DNA from: Elusimicrobiota bacterium
Lineage (GTDB): Bacteria; CAYTYR01; UBA6262
Reading direction: 5' to 3'
Assembly: GCA_003153935.1 (NCBI GenBank)
Contig: PMCA01000021.1
Coordinates: forward strand, 1 to 35,629
Length of the DNA stretch: 35,629 nucleotides
Each line of letters starts with the position of its first letter. The stretch's first letter is position 1. Of this stretch, positions 7,261 through 21,447 are shown piece after piece. A program made the translations under genes and the position numbers. The notes under the pieces are model-generated. The model saw nothing but the letters and a program-made list of their open reading frames with translations. It was not told where the DNA came from and ran no database searches.

Positions 7261-10200
7261 TTATTTCGCGAACGTTACTGTCACATAAGAATCCTTAATC
7301 GTGCAGAATCCGTCCGGATCGCCAGGATTAGCCGAGCCCTTATAACTGCCCAACTCCTTGGCTTGTATCTCGCTGCTGGGACTGGCCAGGTCAAAGCAAT
7401 TGGGGCTCGATCCCGGCTTTCCATCACTGCCTTGGCCGCCGCCGCCATGCCATTCGGTCGCCTCTTGATATACCTCGCGAAAATGGTCATTGTCCTGTTG
7501 GCCCACCGCGACGATGAATCGCCACGTTTTGCCGGACGGCTTGCCACCCAGGAGAGACCAGGGGATGGCCACTTCCACATTGTTCCAGTTATAATCGTCG
7601 ATCTGGAACCCTTCGGTGTCCTTATCGCCGCCCTTTTTCTCGGCGATGACTTTGCCGGAGCTGTCCCAGACAAAACCTTTATAGGTGCCGGATATGCCGA
7701 CCGCGTATTCGCACGCCAGGTTCGGCGCCACTTTTATCTTGGCCTGACCGGGCAAGGTTATCATTCCTTTTGTTTCCAGGCCGCCTTCGACCCCGTTGGT
7801 GTCGATACCGATCAACCGGAAAGGCGCCCACCAGTCGCCGGGGCGGGAACATTTAATCATAAAATACAGATTTTGAATGTCATATGTTACCCGGAATTCC
7901 CGCAGGTCGGATGATTTTTCAAAGGCCTTATTGGTCGGGTATTTGTATTGGCCGGGACCGGTATCATCGTTCTTGGCGTCGGTCCAGATAAATTCATCGG
8001 CATTAACTGTCCAGGTGTTTTCCGCCGGCGCTATCCCCACCCAGTCCATGATATTTTTATCCACCTTGATAGAATGGCCTTTCAGGGGCATGCCGATAGT
8101 TACTTTTATAGAATCAGATTCCCTGACGCCATTTTTGGCTATTTCCGTTACGGTGATAGTGTGCACCGACTGCGGTTTATATTTAGCCGAGATAGTCCAA
8201 ACCGCTTCATAAAGGCCTTTTTCATTTTTTACCAGGGGAATTTCCTTGCCCTTGTCTATGACCGCGAAGATCTTCTCAATATCACTATGGGCTTTGGGAA
8301 TGGCGGAAATGGCGCAGGTTTTATAAACGGTCCCATCGGCTAACGGCGCGACAATGGCTACCTTATTATAAATATAGAGGTTCTCTTCAATCTGCCCTAT
8401 CTGGCCAATGCGGTCAACGGCCCGGACGAACAGTTTATACGCTCCGTCTTTGAGTATAGTCGTATCCAGGGTTCCTCCGTAAAATTCATTCCCGGTAAGT
8501 GTTAGCGGGGTCCAGACAGCGTTATCCAGGGAATACTCCGCCTTGACTATAGATTCTCCCTTGATCTGGGTGGCAATCATCTCTTTGCCGCCGCAGAGAG
8601 ATTCCGCTTGTGGGCTGTTAACCTTTATCTCAGGGATATTGAAATCGATCTTTTCCCCATCCAGGGTGATGGCGAAAATGTGCAGTCTCGGTTCATTCGG
8701 GACTATAATAGCATGCAGTATTTTTTTAGGGTCAGCGGCCATTGTTTGCGAATATATGGCCACTCCGGGCAGACGCAAACCGGGCTTTTCATGATGATAC
8801 GAAGTAACAATAACCGGCTCGTCATCGAACACGGGGTTGCCGCCCCACCAGTCGGAATAGCCAATTTTTTTCGTTTCTTCGGTGCCATCGGTGTATTTAA
8901 ACACCATTTCCACTTTCTCACTGCCGTTGTGTATGGAGGCCAGAACATGGACCTTGTCATAACGGCCATTAGGAACGATTATCTGCTGGCCGATGCACTC
9001 TACATTATTATTCTGCCCGTCTTCCTTCGGCCCGAATTTATATTTTATCTTTTCTTTGCCCATAAAGATGAAGTCGCGATTGGAGTCGGGCAGCTGCTCG
9101 GCCGGGAAGTCCCAGCCGGTCGCCTCTTCCAGGTTCTTGGCGGTGGTGATCCAGTCATGATTGAAAGCCAGATCCACGTAAATTCCCGGGGTATTGTCAA
9201 TGGTTACTTTAGCTTCCTGCGCTACCACATTCTTACCGGTGTCCTCTACCTGGAATTTAATCACATGGGTGGAACCGTTGGCCAGGGAAGCCACGTCCCA
9301 ATCCGCCAGGTACATCCCGTTGCCTTTTTCGGTCATATCTGCCGCTGGGCCGTCGTCTATAGTATATTTGACGGAAGCGATGCCGCGATCATCCTCGGCC
9401 ATCACTTTCAGCATCACCTTATTCATGACAAAAGCGCCGTCCTTAGGTTCGCTCTTTACCACCGGCGGGTCATCGACATTGTCAACTATCACATTGGCCG
9501 CTTCGGAAACCGTGACCCCGTTTTTGTTCACGGTCCGGAAGACAAATGAATGGAATCCCTCACTAAGGACCTTAGTGTCCAGAGTGTAACTGTAATAACT
9601 ATTGCCTTGTGAAGCCAGCTTGTAAGTTTTTTCTCCATCAACGGTGACTTCTTTAACTACCCAGTCCTTACCCGCCATGAACCCAGCTTTTAACTCGGTT
9701 TTGCCCGCGATCTTGCTGTCGGTTTTGGGGCTAACCACCTGGATACTGGCATCCGGACGTCCGTATTCCCGCTGCACAGCGGTAAATATTTTTTTGTAGA
9801 ATTTCCGGTCCATGGTCATGACACCCATGGTGCCCGGATCATTGATCATGGTGTGCCAGTCAAAGGCCGTCCACCAGACGTAACCGCACACGCCGGCAGA
9901 TTCATTAAAGGCCTTCATGGTATTCTTGAACAGGTCCACTTGTTTCAACTGCATATTATCTTCTTTATAAGGAGCCCAGATACCGAATTCAGTGGCGATT
10001 ATAGGCTTGTCCGGGAAAGTTTTGCGCATGTCAGCTAAAGCATTCAGAGTATCTTCATAATAGTCCGCACCGTAGAATACGCCGTAGTACATGGTGTAAC
10101 CGATCACATCGGCTTCTTTCTGGGTAGGGTCCTTGGGATCGCTGCCGGAAGCGGACTGGGACACGAAGCGAGTACCATCCACTTTATAGGCCAGGTCATG

Positions 10201-11733
10201 CAGATCGTGAATATATGCCCCGCGTTCCGTTTGCCAGCTGCATTCGTTGCAGGTGCTCCAAAAAGCGACCGCGGCCCGGTTATAATCCTGGTAGATCATC
10301 TCCAGCCACATCTGCCGGGCAAGGCCGCGCTCTTTGCGTTGTATATCGAACTCCGGCCCGCCGAACCAGTAAACCGGTATCTCTTCCCAAATAACAAAGC
10401 CCATCCGGTCCGCCAGGATCTGCGTAAACGGGTGATTGGGATAATGGGCGGTACGGATGAAATTGCAATTGGCTTCCTTGATCATTTTAAAATCTTTATA
10501 TAGTATCTGCTGGGTGGTCTTATTTCCAGGGACTTCTTTACTGCCGGGATAGACTTCGTGCCGCGCCAGGCCTTTCAGGAGCAATGGCTGGCCATTCAGC
10601 AAAATAGCCGGTTTGGTTTTATCTATGGTAAATTCCCTGATGCCGAACTGGGTATAGAATTTATCCACTAATTGTTTAGTATTGAGGTCATACAGTTTCA
10701 CTTGCAGCACATAGAGGTTAGGCTCAGACGGGGACCACAAGACGGCTTTATCGGATTCCAGGTCGAAATCAACTACTCCGGCTTCCTGCACGGCCAGGGC
10801 TATCTCTTTGGATTTGGTCCCGGTTACCGCCAGTTCCTGGGAAAAGTCGGCTATGTCCTTGGCGCTTTCGGCCAGGATATTTTTATCGGTCAGCTTGGCC
10901 CGGCAGATATACACTTCCGCTTTAAGCTTCTGCGCGGCGGTTTTGTTATCGATAACCACGCGGGCGGAAACCTGGACCTTGTTGGCGCCCAGCAGTTTGG
11001 TTTTAACGTCCGCGCGGACGATATTGGCCAGCGGGCAAACATCGATATAGACATCTCTCTTGATGCCGCCGTAGCTCCACCAGTCGCCGATAAAACAGGG
11101 AACAATAACATTCTTTTGTTCGCGGTTATTCAAAGGAACCCAGGGAATATTGTCAACCCTGACCGCGATCGTATTTTTCTGGTCGTAGTTCACCAGGGAG
11201 CTGATATCAAAAGCGAATGGCGTGTAGCCTCCTTCATGGCAGCCGAGCCACTTGCCGTTAATCCAGACATCGGTGAAATAATTGGCAGCCAGGAAAACCA
11301 GCCTTAAGAATTTCCCCTGGTTATCCTTGCCGACGGTAAAGGTGCGGCGGTACCAGGCGCCATCCTGGTAACGGTCCGGGGACGGGTTCTCTACCCCAGG
11401 GATAGCCATGTCCTGCCAGGCGGAATCGTTAAAATCTGCCTGGTACCGGCCCTGGCTCTCTTTCTCCACCGCGGCGACAGTATCGGGGGTGCGGCTGGCC
11501 AGGGTCAAGTCATGGTTCATTATCTGGCGTTCTTTTTTCCAGGTGCCAGCCAGGTTAATTACGCCACGATCCTGTTTCTCGAAACTTGGTAAAGGGAGGC
11601 CGTTCTGGAAAGGAACCACGGCCGCGCCGATGTCTTTGAGTTCCAGGGTCGGCGGCTGTAAAGTATTGGCGAAAGACCAGCCGGATAATATGATCCCCAT
11701 GGCACAAAAAAACAAAATCATCAGCTTTTTCAT
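7261..11733 (-). CDS. giant secreted GH2 glycosidase with C-terminal DOMON-like domain
   Basis: A 1490-residue exported enzyme with a signal peptide (residues 1-22). Domains in order: GH2 N-terminal jelly roll (about 60-235, ending YGGIKRDVYI), immunoglobulin-like domain (240-370), and GH2 TIM barrel (375-660). The acid/base is Asn496-Glu497 (STCNECS) and the nucleophile is Glu582 (IATEFG). Ig-like repeats follow at about 665-850, then a jelly-roll-like domain (850-1030), another Ig-like region (1035-1215), and a DOMON/glucodextranase-type domain (1220-1490) nearly duplicating the protein at 4911-5834. GH2 includes beta-galactosidases, beta-glucuronidases and beta-mannosidases. Beta-galactosidase is favoured by the GH35 gene in the operon, but this is not proven. 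AAAGGGAG precedes the ATG. The length is well above the usual 600-1050 residues because of the added modules. Confidence 0.9.
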   Translation of the reverse strand: MKKLMILFFCAMGIILSGWSFANTLQPPTLELKDIGAAVVPFQNGLPLPSFEKQDRGVINLAGTWKKERQIMNHDLTLASRTPDTVAAVEKESQGRYQADFNDSAWQDMAIPGVENPSPDRYQDGAWYRRTFTVGKDNQGKFLRLVFLAANYFTDVWINGKWLGCHEGGYTPFAFDISSLVNYDQKNTIAVRVDNIPWVPLNNREQKNVIVPCFIGDWWSYGGIKRDVYIDVCPLANIVRADVKTKLLGANKVQVSARVVIDNKTAAQKLKAEVYICRAKLTDKNILAESAKDIADFSQELAVTGTKSKEIALAVQEAGVVDFDLESDKAVLWSPSEPNLYVLQVKLYDLNTKQLVDKFYTQFGIREFTIDKTKPAILLNGQPLLLKGLARHEVYPGSKEVPGNKTTQQILYKDFKMIKEANCNFIRTAHYPNHPFTQILADRMGFVIWEEIPVYWFGGPEFDIQRKERGLARQMWLEMIYQDYNRAAVAFWSTCNECSWQTERGAYIHDLHDLAYKVDGTRFVSQSASGSDPKDPTQKEADVIGYTMYYGVFYGADYYEDTLNALADMRKTFPDKPIIATEFGIWAPYKEDNMQLKQVDLFKNTMKAFNESAGVCGYVWWTAFDWHTMINDPGTMGVMTMDRKFYKKIFTAVQREYGRPDASIQVVSPKTDSKIAGKTELKAGFMAGKDWVVKEVTVDGEKTYKLASQGNSYYSYTLDTKVLSEGFHSFVFRTVNKNGVTVSEAANVIVDNVDDPPVVKSEPKDGAFVMNKVMLKVMAEDDRGIASVKYTIDDGPAADMTEKGNGMYLADWDVASLANGSTHVIKFQVEDTGKNVVAQEAKVTIDNTPGIYVDLAFNHDWITTAKNLEEATGWDFPAEQLPDSNRDFIFMGKEKIKYKFGPKEDGQNNNVECIGQQIIVPNGRYDKVHVLASIHNGSEKVEMVFKYTDGTEETKKIGYSDWWGGNPVFDDEPVIVTSYHHEKPGLRLPGVAIYSQTMAADPKKILHAIIVPNEPRLHIFAITLDGEKIDFNIPEIKVNSPQAESLCGGKEMIATQIKGESIVKAEYSLDNAVWTPLTLTGNEFYGGTLDTTILKDGAYKLFVRAVDRIGQIGQIEENLYIYNKVAIVAPLADGTVYKTCAISAIPKAHSDIEKIFAVIDKGKEIPLVKNEKGLYEAVWTISAKYKPQSVHTITVTEIAKNGVRESDSIKVTIGMPLKGHSIKVDKNIMDWVGIAPAENTWTVNADEFIWTDAKNDDTGPGQYKYPTNKAFEKSSDLREFRVTYDIQNLYFMIKCSRPGDWWAPFRLIGIDTNGVEGGLETKGMITLPGQAKIKVAPNLACEYAVGISGTYKGFVWDSSGKVIAEKKGGDKDTEGFQIDDYNWNNVEVAIPWSLLGGKPSGKTWRFIVAVGQQDNDHFREVYQEATEWHGGGGQGSDGKPGSSPNCFDLASPSSEIQAKELGSYKGSANPGDPDGFCTIKDSYVTVTFAK

Positions 11734-11762
11734 TATTTTCTCCCTTTAGTTCGTCTTATTAT

Positions 11763-12299
11763 TTACCAGGATATATAAGAAGTACCCTTAGTATCCACGC
11801 CTTGCACATTTACATAGACCTTGCCCCATACGGTAAGCCCGGAGACAGTATCGGTAGTGCGGTAATACCACCAGCCAACGTCAGGCGGGCCGGGAGTGGG
11901 AACGGTATCGGGCCAGTGTATGCCCTCGTGCCAGATATCATACCTGGTGTGTTGGGCACCGGTCGGCTCCGGCCCGATACGGCACAGCGGTATCTCATAC
12001 AGATATTGCGAGAAATCGCTGTTCAGAATCCAGCCAAAACCATCATCAAAGTACATCCGCACGGGAAAAGCCGGGTCGTAAGAAATGAAAAGCGGAAAGA
12101 ACGTATTATCCGAATAATAAATATTCAAGGCTGAGCGGATCGCGCCGAGGTTGCCCTTAGTCGCTCCTTCTTTGGCCCGTAGGACAAAATTGAGGTAACG
12201 TGGAACAGCCACGCCGGCCAGTATGCCGATGATCGCTACCACGATCATCAACTCTACCAATGTAAATCCGAATATACTTTTCTTGTTTTTAGCGAGCAT
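11763..12299 (-). CDS. type IV prepilin-like / pseudopilin protein
   Basis: A 178-residue protein with a textbook class III signal: a short basic leader (KNKK), then cleavage after Gly11 before Phe12. A hydrophobic helix (FTLVELMIVVAIIGILAGVA) follows, with the conserved Glu at mature position 5. The region after the helix (RAKEGATKGNLGAIRSALNIYYSDN) resembles GspG/PulG-type pseudopilins. The C-terminal part is a short beta-rich head that I do not recognise. AAGAAGG precedes the ATG. It sits 18 bases after the LacI gene and 29 bases before the GH2 gene, so it is probably co-transcribed with them. A surface or secretion role linked to polysaccharide use is inferred from position only. No pilus assembly genes are in the window. 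Confidence 0.88.
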   Translation of the reverse strand: MLAKNKKSIFGFTLVELMIVVAIIGILAGVAVPRYLNFVLRAKEGATKGNLGAIRSALNIYYSDNTFFPLFISYDPAFPVRMYFDDGFGWILNSDFSQYLYEIPLCRIGPEPTGAQHTRYDIWHEGIHWPDTVPTPGPPDVGWWYYRTTDTVSGLTVWGKVYVNVQGVDTKGTSYISW

Positions 12300-12317
12300 A
12301 AAGCCTTCTTCTTACGC

Positions 12318-13349
12318 CTAAAAATTCCAAAGATGAGAGCAGGATTCCCTGACGATCAATTCCGTCGGCAGGATCTTACCAAAGTCATTCCTTTGCCCTT
12401 CTTCATAATCGATCAAGAAAAGAGCTGCTTCCTCTCCCAACCTGAATATCGGCTGTTTTACTGTCGTCAGAGGCGGATTCATCTGACTGGCTATGTTTAT
12501 GTCGTCAAACCCGACTACGGAAACGTCTTTGGGAACCTGCAGGCCGCTATCCCGCAGGGCGGTGATCGCGCCCTTGGCCATCAAGTCGTTGGCGGTAAAA
12601 ACAGCGGTGAGGCGGATCTTATTCTGCAGCAATCTCTGCATCGCCTGATAGCCGCGGTCCTCGGAAAAATCCCCCTGGTCCATTAACGACTCCTGAACCT
12701 TCAAACCGTGACTCATAAGGGCCTTGCGGAAACCGAACTCGCGTTCCCGCGCGTCGCCGCGGTCGAAAGGACCGCCAATAAAGCCGATGCTTTTGTGTCC
12801 CAGGCCGATCAGGAAGTCAGTCGCTTTAATCGCCCCCGCTATATTATCCACATCCACATAATTGATATTTTTAAAGCCCGCGTGCCCGCCCGCGACGATA
12901 AAAGGAATATGCTCATCCTTGAGCTTCCTCACCAGTGGCGAGGTCATGGGCGGCGCCAGCACGATGAAGCCCTTAATCAGCTTTGAATAATACCAGCTGG
13001 TCAGGTGGCTGATGTTAATCTCGTGCCGGGTGGAATAGTTCAATATGATCAGGTCGTAGCCGTTATCGTCCACGGCTTTTTCGATGCCTTGTAATATTTC
13101 GCTGAAATAGTAGTTGGTGAACAGGTGTTCATACTGGATGACCAGCGCCAGGGTTTGGGGCTCCATTTTGGACAGGTTGACGGCGGTCATATTGGGATGG
13201 AATTTGAATTTTTTGATCAGGGCGCTGATTTTCAGGCGGGTTTTGGGACTGACATAAGGGTGGTTATTGATGACCCGGGAAACGGTCATCTTGGAAGTGC
13301 CGGCTTTTTCCGCAATTGTGGAGATGGTAACGTTGGTTGGCTTTTGCAT
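12318..13349 (-). CDS. LacI-family transcriptional repressor of the sugar operon
   Basis: A 343-residue protein of standard LacI length. The N-terminal helix-turn-helix is intact (VTISTIAEKAGTSKMTVSRVINN, residues 6-28), followed by the hinge region (NLSKMEPQ). The effector-binding domain resembles periplasmic sugar-binding proteins, with LVIQYEHLF, GFIGGPFDRGDA, AVFTANDLMAKGAI, VSVVGFDDI and PPLTTVKQP. A perfect palindromic operator lies just upstream of its own start, so it probably autoregulates and controls the whole downstream run (prepilin, GH2, binding protein, secreted domain, permeases, GH35). The inducer is probably the imported sugar, which is unknown. AAAGAGG precedes the ATG. Confidence 0.95.
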   Translation of the reverse strand: MQKPTNVTISTIAEKAGTSKMTVSRVINNHPYVSPKTRLKISALIKKFKFHPNMTAVNLSKMEPQTLALVIQYEHLFTNYYFSEILQGIEKAVDDNGYDLIILNYSTRHEINISHLTSWYYSKLIKGFIVLAPPMTSPLVRKLKDEHIPFIVAGGHAGFKNINYVDVDNIAGAIKATDFLIGLGHKSIGFIGGPFDRGDAREREFGFRKALMSHGLKVQESLMDQGDFSEDRGYQAMQRLLQNKIRLTAVFTANDLMAKGAITALRDSGLQVPKDVSVVGFDDINIASQMNPPLTTVKQPIFRLGEEAALFLIDYEEGQRNDFGKILPTELIVRESCSHLWNF

Positions 13350-13479: not shown

Positions 13480-14985
13480 TTATTTCCTGGCCCACATTTC
13501 CGAGCCTATATCCTTCAGCATGCCGGCTGTCTTCTGCTCACTGACCAGCGGATTGAACCCGGTCATGCCGATTATGCGCCATAAAGAGCTGGCTAAAGAG
13601 GTGACCCAGCGGCCGTCTTTGCCCCGGGGTATTTCCCAGCCGTAGAAGAAGGTGTTTAGCACTTCGGTGTCTTTGGGCTGGATGCTGGTATAGGGCAGTA
13701 CGCCCTGCGGCAGGCCGGCGATACGGGACATCCGGTCCTCTTCTTTTAGATATTTCAGGGCTTTACCCTGATATTCGGTCATCTGGTCTATATCCCCGGT
13801 TTCCCGGCAGTATTGGGCCATTACCTGGTACATCAGGATCATCTGGCCGGTACCCTCCCACCAGATCAAACGCGGGCGGTTCGGGTCTTTGTATTTTTCA
13901 TCGGTAAAATCGAATCCTTCGATGACTTCGCCGTTCAGTTCCTGCCTGACCAAAAAATTATCTTCGGCGAATTTAACCATCTGGAACGGATCCACCCCCC
14001 ACTGCTTCAGCTCGCCCGGGGTGAGCGCCGCGATGCCCCAGCTGACCGTGTCCAGGGCCTTGGTCTTATCGGCGCCGAATTCGTTATAACCGCAGTTAAA
14101 GCTCCGGTATTCCTGGTTAAAACCAACCGTCAACAACCATTTCCTGATGCAAGCCATCTCGTACTGTATCTCCCGAAGCGAGAAATTCTTCTGGACGAAT
14201 ATGCCCCGGACTTTCTCATCGGCCTGGTTATAGATCTTTTCCAGCCATTTCAGGACCGCGTAGTTATCAATAATATTTTCCGAGGAAAAAACTGTGCTCC
14301 AGTCGGGTCCCCAGCCGCTGCCCATGCAGACCGCGCCGCGGGTGCCGTCGGCGAACTGGAAATGCGGAAGGTCGTAGGCCCAGCGGGCCATGTCCAAGAC
14401 GAACGGCAGGAAATCTTTCGTACCGCTGAACTGGTCATACTGCAGGGCAGACAGGGCCAGCCACATATTCGGGCCGACATGTATGCGGTCGCCATCGATG
14501 CCCATATCCAAACCGTTCTCCTCAGAGGTATTAAAATCGGTGATAACGTATGAATTCAGCAAACCCTTATTGCCGTTTTTCTCAGTGTAAAAGTTATCTC
14601 GCATGACGGTCAGCATCCGTTTGGCCCTGTCGTACTGCCCATTCAGGGTATAAACCATGATCGCCAGCGCCAGGTCGTAGGTAAAGCCCTGCTGGTCCAG
14701 GATGCCGGCCTTGTCAGGGTAATATTGGTTGCTGGCCGAGTCAAAATAATAAGCGGAAGAACCGTGGAAGCTTTCCACCAAACCTGTGTTCGCAGACCGT
14801 TCCGTATCCAGAAAAAGCAAAGTCGCGTTATCGACGCTCTTTAGTTTTTCCAGGTACGGGTTGCCGATAGTCTCCTGATTTAAACTGGCCAAAACTATAC
14901 CTGGCTCAGCCGCCGCCGTACGGGAAATAAAAACGAATAATACCAAAAAGGCACAAAAAAAATAACCTACGGCATTACTGTGCAT
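13480..14985 (-). CDS. secreted protein of unknown family, paralogue B (possible helical-barrel glycosidase)
   Basis: A 501-residue exported protein with a signal peptide ending near ISRTAAA (residue 26). I do not recognise a named family. The sequence is mainly helical with repeated aromatic, Gly-rich turns (FHGSSAYYFDS, DGDRIHVGPNMW, GSGWGPDWSTVFSSENIIDNYAVLKWL, RPRLIWWEGTGQMILMY). This pattern recalls (alpha/alpha)-barrel carbohydrate-active enzymes, but no catalytic residues can be assigned with confidence. It aligns end to end with the next upstream gene (15001-16521); by eye well over half of positions match, so the two arose by tandem duplication. It is the last gene of the riboswitch-led operon. 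AAGGGG precedes the ATG. A role in processing or binding extracellular polysaccharide is only an inference. Confidence 0.75.
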   Translation of the reverse strand: MHSNAVGYFFCAFLVLFVFISRTAAAEPGIVLASLNQETIGNPYLEKLKSVDNATLLFLDTERSANTGLVESFHGSSAYYFDSASNQYYPDKAGILDQQGFTYDLALAIMVYTLNGQYDRAKRMLTVMRDNFYTEKNGNKGLLNSYVITDFNTSEENGLDMGIDGDRIHVGPNMWLALSALQYDQFSGTKDFLPFVLDMARWAYDLPHFQFADGTRGAVCMGSGWGPDWSTVFSSENIIDNYAVLKWLEKIYNQADEKVRGIFVQKNFSLREIQYEMACIRKWLLTVGFNQEYRSFNCGYNEFGADKTKALDTVSWGIAALTPGELKQWGVDPFQMVKFAEDNFLVRQELNGEVIEGFDFTDEKYKDPNRPRLIWWEGTGQMILMYQVMAQYCRETGDIDQMTEYQGKALKYLKEEDRMSRIAGLPQGVLPYTSIQPKDTEVLNTFFYGWEIPRGKDGRWVTSLASSLWRIIGMTGFNPLVSEQKTAGMLKDIGSEMWARK

Positions 14986-15000
14986 ATTCTTACCCCTTTT

Positions 15001-16521
15001 CTAAGGATTTAACTTATTCGCTTTAGCTCTCATTTCCTCGCTGGTGTGTTTCAACAGTCCGGCGGTTCTTTGTTCGTGGACGAGCGGATTGAACCCGGTC
15101 ATGCCGAGGATCCGCCACAAGGTGCTGGAGAGAGCGGAAACCCACCGCCCGCCACGCCCGCGGGGTATCTCCCATTCATAGAAGAAAGTGTTCAATACTT
15201 CCCGGTCCTTTGGCTGTATACTGGTATACGGTAGCACCCCTTCCGGCAAACCGGCCTGCTCGTTCATCCTCTCCATCGCCATCAGGAATCTTAACGCTTT
15301 TTCCTGGTACGCTTCCGCCCGGGCCGGGTTCCCTTGGCGCTGACTGTAGTCAGCCATCACCTGGTAAGCCAAGACCATCTCCCCCGTCCCCTCCCACCAG
15401 ATCAGCCGCGGGCGGTTTTTGTCCTTGCCTTGCTCATCGGTGAAATCAAATCCTTCGATCATTTCACCATTGATCTCCTGCTGGACCAGGAAATTCTCCT
15501 CGGCGAACTGGATCATCTTGACCGGGTTCAGGCCCCAGCTGACTAAAACTTCGGGACCCAGGGCCGTGATGCTCCAACTGACCGTATCCAGCGCCTTGGT
15601 CTGGTCCACTCCCTTCTCGTTATAGCCGCAATTAAAGCTCTGGTAGTTCTTATTGAAACCGACGCGCAGCAACCAGTTCTTGATACATTGCTTTTCATAC
15701 TGGATCTCTTTTAAACCGAATTTATTTGCGGCGAATATACTTTTCTCCTGCTCATCGGCTGTTTTGTATAATTCTTCCAGCATCTGCAGGACCGCGTAAT
15801 TATCGATGATGTTCTCAGTGGAATATACGGTGCTCCAATCGGGCCCCCAGCCGCTGCCCATGCTGACCGCGCCGCGACTGCCGTCGGCGAACCTGAAATG
15901 CGGCAGGCCATAGGCCCACTTGGCGATGGCGATGGCAAAATCCAGGTATTTGGCGGTGTGGCTCAACCGGTCGTACTGTAAAGAGGCCATAGCCACCCAC
16001 ATGTTCGGGCCGACATGGATGCGGTCGCCGTCCACGCCCATGAGCAGGTTATCCTGTCCCCAGACGTCAAATTCGGAGGTTTGGTAAGCGTTCAGCAGAC
16101 CGATATAACCGTTCTTTTCCACGAAGAAATTATCCTTAAGCACCGCCAGGATATCATCCGCCTTCTTGTTCTGGCCGTTGATGACGTAGACGATAACCGC
16201 CAGGGCCAGGTCATAAGTGAACGCCTGCTGGTCCAGCAAGCCGGCTTTCTGCGCGTAATACTGCTGGCTGGCTTCGTCATAATAATAATTGGAAGAGCCG
16301 TGGAAACTTTCCAGCAGGCCGGTGCCCTGGTTGCGCTGTCTTTCCAGGAAACTCAGGACCTTATGGTCCAGGGTATTCAGTTTTTCGAGATAATAATTTT
16401 TCTCTCCGGGAGTATTCAGGTTGGCCAGCACGAAACCGGTCTGCGCTCCGGCAACCGGCGCGGCTAAGCCCAGGCTGAGCAACAAGAAAGCGATAAGGAC
16501 CGGAGAATTATTCTTTACCAT
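15001..16521 (-). CDS. secreted protein of unknown family, paralogue A (possible helical-barrel glycosidase)
   Basis: A 506-residue exported protein with a signal peptide (residues 1-26, ending VAGAQ). It is the tandem paralogue of the gene at 13480-14985 and shares the blocks TGL(V/L)ESFHGSS, FTYDLALA, GDRIHVGPNMW, MGSGWGPDWST, FNCGYNE, TKALDTVSW, GFDFTDE, RLIWWEGTG and LPYTSIQPKD. The conserved Asp, Glu and Trp residues in these blocks are candidates for a sugar-binding cleft. The start codon overlaps the stop of the PorV-like gene by seven bases (ATGGTAA), indicating translational coupling. Expression should depend on the riboswitch leader at 20 kb. No C-terminal sorting domain is visible, so it probably ends in the periplasm or is exported by another route. 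Confidence 0.75.
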   Translation of the reverse strand: MVKNNSPVLIAFLLLSLGLAAPVAGAQTGFVLANLNTPGEKNYYLEKLNTLDHKVLSFLERQRNQGTGLLESFHGSSNYYYDEASQQYYAQKAGLLDQQAFTYDLALAVIVYVINGQNKKADDILAVLKDNFFVEKNGYIGLLNAYQTSEFDVWGQDNLLMGVDGDRIHVGPNMWVAMASLQYDRLSHTAKYLDFAIAIAKWAYGLPHFRFADGSRGAVSMGSGWGPDWSTVYSTENIIDNYAVLQMLEELYKTADEQEKSIFAANKFGLKEIQYEKQCIKNWLLRVGFNKNYQSFNCGYNEKGVDQTKALDTVSWSITALGPEVLVSWGLNPVKMIQFAEENFLVQQEINGEMIEGFDFTDEQGKDKNRPRLIWWEGTGEMVLAYQVMADYSQRQGNPARAEAYQEKALRFLMAMERMNEQAGLPEGVLPYTSIQPKDREVLNTFFYEWEIPRGRGGRWVSALSSTLWRILGMTGFNPLVHEQRTAGLLKHTSEEMRAKANKLNP

Positions 16522-17453
16522 TTGAACCCCAGGGAGATGCGATGAGTATCGCCCAGCAGGCCATACGGCATCCAGGCGTAGTTCAGGTTGACGCCGGCTA
16601 CTTTAAAGCCCATGCCGGCGCTGACCCCGGTGAAATTCTCGATATCATTGATGTTGGCGGTATCATAACCGGCGCGGAAAGCGAAATTCTTGCTGACCCA
16701 GTATTCCAGGCCGACGTTCTCGCTCAGTTTATTGGTCTCTTTGGGCTGGTACTTGGCGTCGGCTGACATGCAGAAAATATCTTCGACAAATATATACAGG
16801 ATGCCGAATTTAAAGGTGACCGGCAGTGGATCCTTTTCCTTGACGAAGGTCACGCCCGGGCCCAAATTCTGCACCGCCAGGCCCAAGGACAGGTTCGGTT
16901 TAACTTTATAAATGGTGCCCAGGTCGACGGCGTAACCATTGGCGCTTTCCGCTTCGATCTTCTGCTGAAAAGCCTTGAGGTTGGCGCCCAGCGCGAACCG
17001 GCTGCCGAAATTGTGGGCGTAGGTCAGCATCACCAGGCTCTGGTTGCTGGAGAAGGTTCCTACCTTGGTGCCGGACAAATCAGTCTGGTCGATAATGCCG
17101 GAATTTAAATAAGCCAGGGCCACGCCAAAGTTGTCCTTTTGGCCGACCGGCTGGATGTACCCGACATAACCGTAAGTGATGCCCTGCAGGTAATCGATAT
17201 AGCTGGCAATGGCTTCTTTATTCTGGTTCCAGCCGATACCCGCCGGGTTGTATTGCGGACCATTGGCGTCATTAGCCAAGGCGGTATAGGCTCCGCCCAT
17301 GGCTACCGGCCGGGCGCCCGCGCCTAAACGCAGGAATTGCGCGCCGGTGGTGCCGGTCCCGGAAGCTAAGGAATAAGATGGCATGATGGTTACTAAACTA
17401 AGCGCCAGTTCGACTATTTTGAACATCATGGTAATTTTTCTTTTAATGATCAT
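16515..17453 (-). CDS. PorV/PorQ-family outer-membrane beta-barrel protein
   Basis: A 312-residue protein with an N-terminal signal peptide (to about residue 30). The mature N-terminus GAQFLRLGAGARPVAMGGAYTALANDANGPQYNPAG is the hallmark of the PorV/PorQ (UPF0164) family. The rest alternates in short amphipathic strands and ends in an aromatic-terminated strand (ISLGFKW), as outer-membrane barrels do. In Bacteroidetes, PorV (LptO) shuttles cargo from the type IX secretion translocon. Here the gene follows directly after a protease with a T9SS/FlgD-like C-terminal domain, so it may help that protease reach the surface. GAGGG upstream supports the start at 17453. No other T9SS component (SprA, PorU, gliding-motility proteins) is in the window. 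Confidence 0.85.
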   Translation of the reverse strand: MIIKRKITMMFKIVELALSLVTIMPSYSLASGTGTTGAQFLRLGAGARPVAMGGAYTALANDANGPQYNPAGIGWNQNKEAIASYIDYLQGITYGYVGYIQPVGQKDNFGVALAYLNSGIIDQTDLSGTKVGTFSSNQSLVMLTYAHNFGSRFALGANLKAFQQKIEAESANGYAVDLGTIYKVKPNLSLGLAVQNLGPGVTFVKEKDPLPVTFKFGILYIFVEDIFCMSADAKYQPKETNKLSENVGLEYWVSKNFAFRAGYDTANINDIENFTGVSAGMGFKVAGVNLNYAWMPYGLLGDTHRISLGFKW

Positions 17454-17462
17454 CGTACCCTC

Positions 17463-19946
17463 TTATTTTATTATGGCTAATTTCCCGGCTTTGTGTTTGC
17501 CGTCCGGGCTATTGACCAGGAATATATACAGGCCGCTGGCCGCTTTCTGGCCGCCGTCATTGCTCGCGTCCCAATCCACCTGGCCCTGGGCGCTATCGTC
17601 GCTGAGAGTGCGGACCAGCGCTCCGGTCAGGTCGTAGATCTTAATGGTAGATTCAGGTATCAGGTTGGTAAAGGTGATCTTGGTGTGACCCAAACCGCTG
17701 TTAGGCTTGTAGGGATTCGGGAACACTTTAACTTCGTCCAGGGTCTCCAGGGAACCGGCCATAGAGAACAAACGGAATACTTTGCCCTGGACCAGAGTGC
17801 TGCCGGGTATTTCTACAGAGACGTTTCTTTCGTCACGGTGCACTATCTGCTGGCCGGATACTTCTTGCCACATGGTCGTGCTTTCATCCAGGGTGTAGAT
17901 CTTCAGGTTGGATTCCTGCCAGCCAACGATGCCGGCGGGATAACTTAATTGGACGGTGACACAGCCATTCAGAACCTCATTGCTCCTGAATTCCATAACG
18001 GCGGAGGAGAGCTCTTCAACCGTGGCGGTCTTAATCTGGGCTAACAGCTTATTGTCAGCGGAGCTGACCATGTTGATCTTATTTTCGGCCGGCTGGGTGA
18101 TATTCAGTATCTTCTGGTCATTGGTGGGATCCTGGGGCAGAATGACTTTGGTCTGGTAATCAGAACCCCAGAATATGGTGTCGGGACCGTTGCTGGTCCT
18201 GACAATATTATGTACCGGATAAACCGGCTGCGTGGAAGACAAGGTACCGGCAGCGCTGGCTGATACGGAGGATATACGGCTGTTGGTGGAGTTCAGTGAA
18301 GCCACAACGGCTATGTAGTAGCCTTGGCCTTCAGCTAATCCGGAGATAACGCACTGGGTGGCTTGCGGATCGCTGACCGGGGAATTAATGCAAACCTGGA
18401 CCCCGTCATCGGTAATGCCGGTGAAAGGATGCAGGGCGTAATAGACGGCGTATCCTTTAATGGCGGCGCCGGAATTGGCGGGCCAGGTAACGGTCAGGCT
18501 GTCGCCGTCATCGCTCGGAGTATCAAAGGCGTTGAAATCGGCGATCTTGACCTCTTCGCTGGTATCCAGGGTAAGGGCCCGGGCCGCGTCCACTTCGCCA
18601 TAGCCGTAATAATCGTCTTTACCGGCCTGGCCCAGGTCGTTAGCGGACTTAATGATCGCGTCTTCAACTTGCAGATTGGTGAATTCGGAATCTTTGGCTA
18701 AAATGAGGGCAGCCAAACCGGAGACAAATGGGGTAGCCATGCTGGTGCCGCTGGCGCGATAATAATTCACGCCAACAATGTCAGCCTCGTTATGGCTCAT
18801 ATCCGTCCCTTTTGCACGAAGGGAAAGGATGTCCACGCCGGGGGCGGTGACATCCACTATTGCGCCATAATTGGAGAATGAGGCTTTTTGACCGTTGGCA
18901 TCACAAGCTGCCACGCAAATGGCATGGATGTAATTGCCGGGGAAGAACCTTCCAGCATCGGTGTTGTTGTTTCCGGCGGCTGCCACAATTACGCAATTAT
19001 GATTATAGGCGTAATCCAGAGCGTCTTGGATCAAAGCGGAGGTACCGTACCCACCCCAACTGATGTTGATCACTCTGGCGCCATGATCGGCCGCGTAAGC
19101 TATGGCGCGCGCTAAACTGGTAGAAGCCCCGTTGCCGCTGTCAGACAGGCCTTTCAGGGCCATTATCTTAACCTGCCAGCAGACTCCGGTTATACCCATG
19201 GCATTGTTGCCCACCGCGCCAATGATCCCGGCTACGTGGGTGCCATGTCCGTGCGTGTCCATAATATTGTTATTGTCATCTACAAAATTCCAGCCCATAT
19301 CGTCATTTTCTAAACCATCGAAGATACCGCTGGTATTGTGCCAGACATTGTCTATAATATCGGGATGAGTGTAATCCAGCCCGGTATCGATCACGGCTAC
19401 TATAATATCACTGCTGCCGCGGCTGACGTTCCAGGCCTTCTCCATTTGCATCGCCTGCAGGCCCCACTGGTCGGAATAAGCCTGGTTCCAGGTACCGGTT
19501 TCATTGAAAAACTGGTCATTGGGGGTGCTGGCAATGCCGTACTCGTAAACCGGCTCCGCGCTTTCCACAAAGCCGCTGTTCTGGTAGGCCTTGATAACCT
19601 GTTCTGGATCTTGATCTGCGGAGAGAGAAACGGTGAACCACTGAGAAAGCTCATTACTCTTCTGGAGATCCTGGGGGACTATCGCTTGACCTTGACCGCT
19701 GTTATGGGAGGCGGTACTGAAAACCTGGTGCATGGACTTGATTCCAAGCTGTTGGCTTACATTATTAATACCGGATGATACGAACTGAGCGCTTGAGCCG
19801 GTATTATCGTGCCTTACCTTGATCAGGATCTCCCCCGCTTTTCTCAGTGGCGCCATTTCCTGTGCCTGGACTATAGAAGGGCTCGGGCTGTTAACCAGTC
19901 CGCTGATGATCGCTATTACTATCAGGCCCTTCTTCATGCTGTCCAT
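17463..19946 (-). CDS. secreted subtilisin-like protease with FN3 and FlgD/T9SS-type C-terminal domain
   Basis: A protein of 827 residues, numbered from the ATG at 19946. A signal peptide covers about 1-28. A fervidolysin-like propeptide follows (35-140). The S8 catalytic domain (165-455) has the triad Asp187 (AVIDTGLD), His234 (HGHGTHVAG) and Ser402 (SGTSMATP), all intact. A fibronectin type III-like domain (about 470-570), a beta-rich linker and a C-terminal FlgD-Ig/type A sorting-like domain follow (VKVFPNPYKP ... IKIYDLTGALVRTL ... ASGLYIFLV). I prefer the ATG at 19946: it lies six bases after AAAGGGAG, whereas the TTG at 19952 directly abuts it. The gene is first in its operon and sits just after two riboswitch-terminator modules, so cyclic dinucleotide levels probably control it. 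It may cleave surface or adhesion proteins; the target is unknown. Confidence 0.93.
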   Translation of the reverse strand: MDSMKKGLIVIAIISGLVNSPSPSIVQAQEMAPLRKAGEILIKVRHDNTGSSAQFVSSGINNVSQQLGIKSMHQVFSTASHNSGQGQAIVPQDLQKSNELSQWFTVSLSADQDPEQVIKAYQNSGFVESAEPVYEYGIASTPNDQFFNETGTWNQAYSDQWGLQAMQMEKAWNVSRGSSDIIVAVIDTGLDYTHPDIIDNVWHNTSGIFDGLENDDMGWNFVDDNNNIMDTHGHGTHVAGIIGAVGNNAMGITGVCWQVKIMALKGLSDSGNGASTSLARAIAYAADHGARVINISWGGYGTSALIQDALDYAYNHNCVIVAAAGNNNTDAGRFFPGNYIHAICVAACDANGQKASFSNYGAIVDVTAPGVDILSLRAKGTDMSHNEADIVGVNYYRASGTSMATPFVSGLAALILAKDSEFTNLQVEDAIIKSANDLGQAGKDDYYGYGEVDAARALTLDTSEEVKIADFNAFDTPSDDGDSLTVTWPANSGAAIKGYAVYYALHPFTGITDDGVQVCINSPVSDPQATQCVISGLAEGQGYYIAVVASLNSTNSRISSVSASAAGTLSSTQPVYPVHNIVRTSNGPDTIFWGSDYQTKVILPQDPTNDQKILNITQPAENKINMVSSADNKLLAQIKTATVEELSSAVMEFRSNEVLNGCVTVQLSYPAGIVGWQESNLKIYTLDESTTMWQEVSGQQIVHRDERNVSVEIPGSTLVQGKVFRLFSMAGSLETLDEVKVFPNPYKPNSGLGHTKITFTNLIPESTIKIYDLTGALVRTLSDDSAQGQVDWDASNDGGQKAASGLYIFLVNSPDGKHKAGKLAIIK

Positions 19947-19962
19947 TGCCAACTCCCTTTCT

Positions 19963-20001
19963 AAAACAGAAAACCGAGCTTTCTTCGATCCGAAAGCCCG
20001 G
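19963..20001 (-). terminator. intrinsic terminator A of the proximal riboswitch
   Basis: On the minus strand CCGGGCTTTC pairs with GAAAGCTCGG across an eight-base loop (one G-U pair), followed by TTTTCTGTTTT. It ends three bases before the AAAGGGAG ribosome site of the protease gene. It is probably the expression platform of aptamer A. Confidence 0.82.
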
Positions 20002-20016
20002 GTGGCATGAACAAGG

Positions 20017-20035
20017 GAAGATTATGGTAATCTTC
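20017..20035 (-). promoter_or_regulatory. alternative hairpin overlapping the aptamer A P1 strand
   Basis: The minus strand reads GAAGATTA, CCA, TAATCTTC, a perfect 8-bp stem with a three-base loop. It contains the GATTAC strand that would otherwise close aptamer helix P1, so the two structures exclude each other. This is a plausible ligand-controlled switch element. Confidence 0.6.
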
Positions 20036-20130
20036 GGTAGCACGGCTGGCTTGGAGTAAGCTTGCGCTTATTGTTAGCCCCTTTGGCTTTGCGTCCCCCG
20101 CTTTCGCGGGGTTTGCCTTTTTCGGATCAC
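20027..20130 (-). promoter_or_regulatory. cyclic di-GMP-I (GEMM-I) riboswitch aptamer A, proximal
   Basis: The minus strand shows the GEMM-I core in order: AAAGGCAAACC, a P2 stem of CCCCGC and GCGGGG capped by a GAAA tetraloop, GGGACGCAAAGCC, then a P3 arm (GGGGCTAA ... TAAGC-GCAA-GCTTA ... GCCAGCC) and the closing CTACCGAA. P1 is formed by GTGATC (20130-20125) with GATTAC (20032-20027). The base before GCAAACC is G, the c-di-GMP form rather than the A found in the cGAMP-sensing subclass. Known members bind c-di-GMP and control motility, biofilm and surface-protein genes. This copy sits nearest the protease gene and is followed by terminator A. Whether ligand turns expression on or off cannot be decided by reading. 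Confidence 0.9.
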
Positions 20131-20181
20131 TATTCAGTTGTTAACTCGGTTTCCTCACTTTCTTGGTTTATCAGGTCCTTT

Positions 20182-20225
20182 AAAATACTAAAGCCGACCT
20201 GTCTATTAATATCCGACAGCTCGGC
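20182..20225 (-). terminator. intrinsic terminator B of the distal riboswitch
   Basis: The minus strand has an 11-base stem, GCCGAGCTGTC with GACAGGTCGGC, around an 11-base loop, followed by TTTAGTATTTT. It lies 18 bases after aptamer B and mirrors the position of terminator A after aptamer A. Confidence 0.8.
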
Positions 20226-20242
20226 TGGCATGCATAAGTCTT

Positions 20243-20342
20243 CATACTTCGGTAACTAGGCTGGCATCAATAAGCACGGCTTATTTTTAGCCCCTTTGGC
20301 TTTGCGTCCCCGGATTTCTCTGGGTTTGCGTTTTCGGATATG
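20243..20342 (-). promoter_or_regulatory. cyclic di-GMP-I-like (GEMM-I) riboswitch aptamer B, distal variant
   Basis: The same core as aptamer A is present: GCAAACC, a P2 arm with a GAAA loop (CCCAGA/TCCGGG, one A-C mismatch), GGGGACGCAAAGCC, AAGGGGCTAA, GCCAGCC and TTACCGAAG. P1 is CATAT with GTATG. The base immediately before GCAAACC is C, not the usual G. From memory of the V. cholerae Vc2 structure this is position G20, which contacts the ligand. It may bind another ligand, bind weakly, or be decaying. It is followed by terminator B and lies upstream of aptamer A on the same transcript. Confidence 0.82.
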
Positions 20343-20383
20343 TATTTAGTTGTCAAATGCAGACGTTCTTCAACTACCCCACT

Positions 20384-20415
20384 ATAATAAGTAGCACCGA
20401 TCCCCATTTTGTCAA
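20384..20415 (-). promoter_or_regulatory. candidate promoter of the riboswitch-led protease operon
   Basis: On the minus strand TTGACA (20415-20410) lies 20 bases before TATTAT (20389-20384), within TATTATAGT. The spacing is longer than ideal, but the boxes are good and no better site precedes aptamer B. It begins 22 bases beyond the tsaD stop codon. Confidence 0.55.
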
Positions 20416-20436
20416 GCGGTTTTTTCAGGGTTTTTT

Positions 20437-21447
20437 TCAGGCCAATTCCAGGTTGGGTTCAGCCTTAAATTCCAGCATTTCTCGACGGTATTTGGGCGAA
20501 CGGTTCCTGATCTTATAGTAGGCGGCACAGGCGATCATGGCCGCATTATCGGTGCACAGGACCAGGCTGGGGTAAAAAAGCTTCAGCCCGGTACCCCTGA
20601 TCTTTTCATCAAAAAGACGGCGCAGGGCTGAATTAGCGGCTACCCCGCCGGCTAATACCACTCTTTTTACTTTCAGCTTTTTGGCGGTTTGGAGGGTCTT
20701 GTTAACCAGGACCTCCACTACCGCCTGCTGAAAGCCCGCGGCTATATCTGCCGTCCGCTTAGCGCCTGATACCTGATGACCTGAGACATAATTGACTACT
20801 GAGGTTTTAAGACCGGAGAAACTGAAATCATAGGAACCTTCAAGATAGGGCCGGGGGAATTTTATGGCCGCGGGGTCACCCTGCCTGGCCAATTTGTCGA
20901 TGATCGGCCCTCCGGGATAGCCAAGCTTGAGCAGTTTCGCTACTTTATCGAAGGCTTCGCCGGCCGCGTCATCCCTGGTGCGTCCGAGTATCTTATATTT
21001 TTCGTGCCCCTGCTGCCAGACGAGCTCGGTATGGCCACCGGATACCACCAGTGCCAGGAACGGCGGCTTTAGTTCAGGATGTTCCAGGAAATTAGCGTAA
21101 ATATGGCCCTCGATATGGTTAACGGGAATCAGGGGTTTTTGATAGAGAGAGGCCAGCGTTTTGGCCGCCATAATGCCGACCAGCAGGGAACCTACCAATC
21201 CCGGGCCTTGGGTTACAGCCAGGACGTCGATCTTTTTCATATCCAGCCGGGCCAGGTCCAGGGCTTCCTGCACCACGAAATTGATATTCTGCAAATGATG
21301 GCGGGAAGCCAGTTCCGGCACCACACCGCCATACTTTTTGTGGATATTGATCTGAGAGGAGATAACGTTGGAGAGGAGTTTCCTGCCATCCTTCAATACA
21401 CTGGCGCTGGTCTCATCGCAGGAGGTTTCGATGGCTAAGATGTACAT
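20437..21447 (-). CDS. tsaD: tRNA N6-adenosine threonylcarbamoyltransferase
   Basis: A 336-residue protein, full length for TsaD. With TsaB and TsaE it transfers the threonylcarbamoyl group from TC-AMP to A37 of ANN-decoding tRNAs. Visible signatures are the N-terminal ILAIETSCDETS, the metal-binding NHIEGH (His111, His115), the nucleotide-fold motif VVSGGHTEL, DDAAGEAFDKVAKLL, FSFSGLKT and VVLAGGVAANSALR. It is the last gene of the long galT-to-tsaD run. A 115-base gap with a palindromic repeat separates it from the deacetylase gene, and it ends just before the promoter of the riboswitch operon. Identification is near certain. Confidence 0.98.
   Translation of the reverse strand: MYILAIETSCDETSASVLKDGRKLLSNVISSQINIHKKYGGVVPELASRHHLQNINFVVQEALDLARLDMKKIDVLAVTQGPGLVGSLLVGIMAAKTLASLYQKPLIPVNHIEGHIYANFLEHPELKPPFLALVVSGGHTELVWQQGHEKYKILGRTRDDAAGEAFDKVAKLLKLGYPGGPIIDKLARQGDPAAIKFPRPYLEGSYDFSFSGLKTSVVNYVSGHQVSGAKRTADIAAGFQQAVVEVLVNKTLQTAKKLKVKRVVLAGGVAANSALRRLFDEKIRGTGLKLFYPSLVLCTDNAAMIACAAYYKIRNRSPKYRREMLEFKAEPNLELA

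Follow-up and report, generated by a model that had tools for sequence, protein, structure and literature searches.

A tandem of GEMM-I aptamers, predicted to form two OFF switches in series, ahead of an exported-protease operon in Elusimicrobiota

Tandem arrangements of c-di-GMP-I riboswitches are already known. In the published set they number 347 doublets and 12 triplets, more than for any other class (PMC9481103), which contradicts the sequence-only reading of the present locus, in which tandem c-di-GMP aptamers were called uncommon. In these tandems, as in the Bc3-5 triple tandem (PMC4759541), repeated aptamer-plus-terminator units stand before one operon and a steeper response is expected. 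Cd1 of Clostridioides difficile is a single OFF switch with a transcription terminator as output; its antiterminator draws on the 3′ strand of the aptamer, termed A (PMC9262584). A natural change of the pocket in an otherwise ordinary GEMM-I aptamer is known from the c-AMP-GMP aptamers (GEMM-Ib), such as the cluster-3 aptamer of D. acetoxidans (PMC9481103), which have A at position 20. At the level of physiology, C. difficile makes ZmpI/PPEP-1 (type I) at low c-di-GMP and CD2831 (type II) at high c-di-GMP (PMC6447587).

Here, we analyzed a stretch of 35,629 nucleotides from an Elusimicrobiota bacterium (assembly GCA_003153935.1, contig PMCA01000021.1), referred to in full as the window. NCBI assigns its lineage, UBA6262, to Elusimicrobiota. 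The leader of an exported-protease operon in this window likely holds two complete c-di-GMP-I family transcriptional OFF switches in series, with read-through in the ligand-empty state by way of a decoy. The sequence, its conservation, the complementarity and the predicted energies are what we observed; the identity of the ligand, the direction of switching, the promoter and the biology of the leader are what we infer. The leader shares with the known tandems its repeated units before one operon and the steeper response expected of them. Bc3-5 are ON switches, whereas the window pair is predicted to be OFF and has a fixed C20/G20 difference between its copies. With Cd1 it shares the aptamer core, the P2/P3 architecture, the terminator output and, as predicted here, the OFF direction. 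In contrast to Cd1, the 5′ strand (P) of each aptamer would pair with a decoy of that aptamer's 3′ half, making the proposed antiterminator P-T in the P/A/T/H notation of PMC9262584, and the upstream aptamer, t1, carries C20, where GEMM-Ib has A20. As far as the limited literature shows, the conserved C20/G20 difference in one leader, the platform built on a decoy of the 3′ half, and the operon and lineage seem to be new.

Anatomy and conservation of the leader

Flanked by tsaD (stop at 20437) and the subtilase gene (ATG at 19946, Table 1), the leader is on the minus strand, as are the operon genes; the sequence-only reading named no strand. An Rfam cmscan of the whole window found both GEMM-I copies on this strand. 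Both copies exceeded the RF01051 gathering cut-off of 35 bits, t1 with an E value of 1.3e-10, and they are thus real, as the sequence-only reading had proposed when it called for a covariance-model search. The motifs that it quoted for the two aptamers are present, and each aptamer is followed by its own stable hairpin and U-rich tail. Since both aptamers are complete, belong to a single class and have an expression platform apiece within one leader, the arrangement is a tandem riboswitch. In the window scan, t2 also matched RF03167 (c-di-GMP-I-GGC, same clan) with 63.1 bits, above that family's cut-off of 59. Its place in the GGC subclass is equivocal and was set aside: t2 clears the score threshold yet lacks the consensus G, with GACGCAAA at the place of the GGC consensus GACGCGAA. 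The genome (1.75 Mb, 36 contigs) holds four GEMM-I copies, namely the tandem pair and two singles.

Table 1. Features of the tandem leader and its operon (window coordinates)
Feature	Position	Strand	Evidence
Promoter-like element: TTGACA 20415-20410, 16-nt spacer, extended -10-like TACTTA 20393-20388	20388..20415	-	Kept in the leaders of four genomes despite different upstream genes
t1, upstream GEMM-I/c-di-GMP-I aptamer	20248..20340	-	RF01051 64.7 bits; C (20330) at the Vc2 G20 equivalent
t1 5′ strand AUAUCCGA, able to pair with decoy	20334..20341	-	Perfect 8-nt complement of 20216-20209, 4/4 genomes
Decoy of t1 aptamer 3′ half, overlapping terminator 1 5′ arm and loop	20209..20238	-	Local alignment, 2/1000 shuffles as good
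Terminator 1 hairpin	20192..20226	-	-19.0 kcal/mol, z -6.36; kept in four genomes; tail TTAGTATTTTA at 20191-20181
t2, downstream GEMM-I/c-di-GMP-I aptamer	20032..20126	-	RF03167 63.1 bits, RF01051 65.3 bits; G (20117) at the Vc2 G20 equivalent
t2 5′ strand GAUCCGAAA, able to pair with decoy	20120..20128	-	Perfect 9-nt complement of 19995-19987
Decoy of t2 aptamer 3′ half, overlapping terminator 2 5′ arm and loop	19987..20010	-	1/1000 shuffles as good; not significant with shorter query
Terminator 2 hairpin	19974..20001	-	-15.8 kcal/mol, z -4.31; found by consensus terminator scan; tail TTTTCTGTTTT at 19973-19963
Subtilase (S8) with fn3 and C-terminal FlgD-Ig/type-A sorting-like tail	17463..19946	-	PF00082 3e-61; TIGR04183 25.7 bits, cut-off 23
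PorV/PorQ-family outer-membrane protein	16515..17453	-	NF033709 201 bits, cut-off 90; under PorV and PorQ equivalog cut-offs
About 500-aa protein, signal-like N-terminus, (alpha/alpha)-barrel-like	15001..16521	-	No Pfam family; AlphaFold2 model
Paralogue of the 15001..16521 protein, about 61-62% identical	13480..14985	-	Sequence identity

The two terminators differ in their tails. Hairpin 2 is followed by the U-rich TTTTCTGTTTT, and hairpin 1 by the weaker TTAGTATTTT in the window, where its U-tract is poor, and by TTAGTTTTTT or TTAGTTTTT in the relatives. A simple terminator scan of the minus strand reported hairpin 2 alone; the 11-nt loop of hairpin 1 exceeds the length allowed by that scan.

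The same aptamer pair precedes subtilase orthologues in three genomes (G001-G003) of the same family and another genus. A PorV/Q-like gene follows the subtilase in G001 and G002, and the G003 contig ends inside the protease. The promoter-like element (TTGACA, 16 nt, TG.TA..T), t1, terminator 1, t2 and terminator 2 all align across the four genomes and two genera. Because all of these parts align though the upstream neighbors differ, the leader is a self-contained unit, and its TTGACA/TACTTA element presumably acts as the promoter. The P2 helix showed covariation, with five of six pairs changing on both sides, and P2 cells were paired in 98.4% of cases versus at most 42% in slid controls. A more distant genome, G004 (other family, same class), encodes a full-length subtilase orthologue with 45% identity (C21:9414-11843), preceded by a single GEMM-I at C21:9055 with G20 and a shorter, 5-nt complement. 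Most simply read, these sequences point to a duplication as the origin of the pair, with t2 as the ancestral type.

Two further observations were made on these leaders. The G004 contig in question (C21, L116; 14 kb) carries three GEMM-I switches, at 2214, 6244 and 9055; one is ON-type, and two have the terminator placement of the window pair together with UCCGA/UCGGA complementarity. Between terminator 1 and t2 (20180-20131), a Shine-Dalgarno-like GAGGAAA is kept without a long reading frame downstream. It is similar to the site ahead of the subtilase start, whose ribosome-binding site is AGGGAG at 19958-19953, and may be a duplication remnant.

Operon proteins and c-di-GMP signaling

The operon content described in the sequence-only reading was borne out, with a subtilase, a PorV/PorQ-family protein and two paralogous proteins of about 500 aa with signal-like N-termini. 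The type-A sorting tail of the subtilase and the PorV/PorQ-family protein, each above its model cut-off (Table 1), make up a type IX cargo/PorV combination. A search of the genome for SprA gave no PF14349 match, and its controls were equally silent. An AlphaFold2 model of the 15001..16521 protein (pLDDT 74.5, pTM 0.82, 8 sequences) resembles the (alpha/alpha) barrels of sugar 2-epimerases and GH76 enzymes, with a best E value of 5.6e-7, a TM of about 0.5 and about 10-13% identity. The model suggests a carbohydrate-acting fold, a fold that by itself gives no activity. Elsewhere in the genome, at G000:C18:129743-131044 (L134), lies the gene of another and more distant paralogue, with 45% identity to the two operon proteins and counterparts in G001-G003. 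Downstream of the operon (window 7261-13349) lie genes for a LacI-family regulator, a pilin-like protein and a large glycoside hydrolase family 2 protein, in the same order as in G001.

The genome has ten GGDEF matches and 17 HD_5 matches, and no EAL domain was matched in it. Seven of the ten GGDEF domains were readable at the selectivity motif, and all seven have ND. These domains support c-di-GMP signaling with HD-GYP-type turnover in this genome. The operon would presumably come under second-messenger control. A single ON-type GEMM-I was also found at L035 2133-2225 (G000:C33), beside a PilB-like ATPase gene and ahead of an exported operon with tail-bearing and PorV-like proteins. This switch recurs in three relatives (L037, L038, L039).

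The decoy platform and the direction of switching

In all eight copies from the four genomes, the aptamer 5′ strand is perfectly complementary over 7-9 nt to the terminator 5′ arm and loop. The t1 pairing is AUAUCCGA with UCGGAUAU in 4/4 genomes, and the t2 pairing is GAUCCGAAA with UUUCGGAUC in the window and GAUCCGA with UCGGAUC in the relatives. Shuffling gave a complement of at least the same length 27-57 times in 5000 for t1 and 36 times in 5000 for the window t2; that of the relatives' t2 was modest against shuffles (224-502 of 5000). At other GEMM-I-like loci, the longest such match was mostly 3-6 nt.

The segment in which this complement lies mimics the 3′ half of the aptamer (e.g., CUUAUUGAUGCCAGCCUAGUUACCGAAGUAU versus CUUAUGCAUGCCAGCCGAGCUGUCGGAUAU). 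No more than 6 of 1000 shuffles aligned as well in any of the eight tandem copies, and the two G004 copies did not pass this test. In a control with a shorter query, seven of the eight copies were still clear and the window t2 failed. The t2 decoy is clearer in the three relatives than in the window. The other loci with low shuffle counts in this control (L045, L106, L115) failed the P2 check.

Folding was examined by energy modeling, which includes neither tertiary contacts nor ligand. At the length reached before the terminator 3′ arm is made, the antiterminator fold was the minimum-energy structure in 8/8 copies, 7-16 kcal/mol below the aptamer plus remainder, with a pairing probability of 0.54-0.98 for the antiterminator helix. 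For the full-length RNA at equilibrium without ligand, the terminator was favored in seven of eight copies, and the antiterminator dominated in the window t2. Since equilibrium favors the terminator in these seven even without ligand, the model needs kinetic trapping.

In the proposed mechanism, the aptamer 5′ strand would leave P1 when ligand is absent and pair with the downstream decoy. Because the decoy segment doubles as the terminator's 5′ arm and loop, this pairing would block the terminator and RNA polymerase would read through. The antiterminator would be held kinetically and would be prevented once ligand closes P1; a ligand-bound aptamer would stay closed, leaving the decoy free and allowing the terminator to form. 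Ligand OFF is the natural reading of this modeled anatomy. Two OFF switches in series would give a NOR output, with the operon made only if both are empty, and not the AND-like logic of the sequence-only reading. If both copies bind c-di-GMP, repression would be tighter and steeper. The affinity of t1 (C20) probably differs from that of t2 (G20), which would set a second threshold.

The opposite direction, with both copies acting as ON switches like those of the triple tandem in Bacillus thuringiensis, was weighed against the placement of the terminators. Tandem ON switches of the c-di-GMP-I class exist (PMC4759541), and the main singles of these genomes show an ON-type arrangement, in which the aptamer end pairs with the terminator 3′ arm (e.g., CCGAGUUA...UAACUCGG in G001). 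In the tandem leader, however, the terminators are placed wholly downstream of the aptamers; their hairpins start 22 and 31 nt past the aptamer ends and share no strand with them, which led us to reject the ON layout for the pair. The competitor of each terminator is, moreover, the aptamer 5′ strand, which ligand would sequester. We therefore give ON switching of the pair a very slight chance.

Position 20, alternative readings and significance

The base just before the core GC pair is what we take to be the equivalent of G20 in Vc2. This placement fits G11 of Cd1 (PMC9262584). In 4/4 genomes, t1 has C and t2 has G at position 20; t2 thus carries the G20 of c-di-GMP selection and t1 does not, and all 23 other position-20 readings among the loci of the relatives search were G. 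By sequence, t1 belongs to the GEMM-I structural family, and ordinary c-di-GMP sensing cannot be assumed for it, because C replaces G at this position. Neither this base nor the decoys in the terminators figured in the sequence-only reading. The P2 region is identical in t1 and t2 of G002, and unusual P2 bases are common to both copies in G003. These sequences suggest that P2 was homogenized between the copies in both genomes while position 20 stayed different.

An exact pattern scan of GTDB returned 75 stretches, 52 of them with a P2-compatible C20 core, and 22 of these 52 cores have a non-C20 core within about 250 nt. Rfam confirmed most of the sampled C20 stretches. C20 aptamers are spread over many phyla and often neighbor a copy that lacks C20. 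In Ca. Fermentibacteria-type genomes (Sabulitectum, Aegiribacteria and relatives), two GEMM-I-like cores lie about 90 nt apart and nearly abut (L042, L049, L050, L068, L072, L074, L075, L076, L078, L080, L091, L093). One core of these pairs has C20 and the other has G, A or U at this position; both copies were above the RF01051 cut-off in L049 and L075, the two tested.

Published data on this position conflict: A20 in GEMM-I shifts preference toward c-AMP-GMP (PMC9481103), whereas replacing the corresponding G of Cd1 by C or A produced no large effect (PMC9262584). Because of this conflict, we favor an altered affinity of t1 over a new ligand. We rejected a GEMM-Ib (c-AMP-GMP) identity, as neither t1 (C20) nor t2 (G20) has A20 and the seven GGDEF domains that were read carry the canonical motif. 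A two-input device, in which t2 senses c-di-GMP and t1 another cyclic dinucleotide or related compound, would draw on the retention of the C20/G20 difference in all four genomes despite the apparent P2 homogenization in G002 and G003, on the known effect of A20 on specificity and on the frequent adjoining of C20 and non-C20 copies across phyla. The lack of a large effect of G-to-C in Cd1 speaks against it, the canonical ND of the seven readable GGDEF domains gives no hint of a hybrid cyclase, and no candidate second ligand is indicated. We consider this device unlikely; should it hold, the leader would be a naturally occurring NOR gate for two ligands, with two GEMM-I paralogues as its parts, and C20 would mark an unrecognized specificity subclass. 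It is more improbable still that t1 is a relic whose pocket lost ligand binding after duplication and that now serves as a fixed attenuator ahead of a working t2. The lack of G20 in t1 would suit a relic, and the single switch of G004 suggests that the tandem derives from one ancestral switch; t1, however, retains the other core bases, the P2 covariation and the decoy complement in two genera, more strictly than t2. Two OFF switches of the c-di-GMP-I family in series, with altered affinity in t1, thus remain the reading that we prefer.

This leader provides a compact, testable case of two paralogous aptamers on one mRNA that differ at a ligand-contact position, conserved across genera, with a proposed expression platform that is a decoy of the aptamer's own 3′ half. 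As with ZmpI and CD2831 of C. difficile (PMC6447587), high c-di-GMP is predicted to turn an exported protease OFF and a second exported operon ON. The two cases differ in protease family, in lineage and in the riboswitch class of the ON arm. By analogy with the C. difficile protease/adhesin pair, these predictions suggest that c-di-GMP may reciprocally control exported operons in a largely uncultured Elusimicrobiota lineage.
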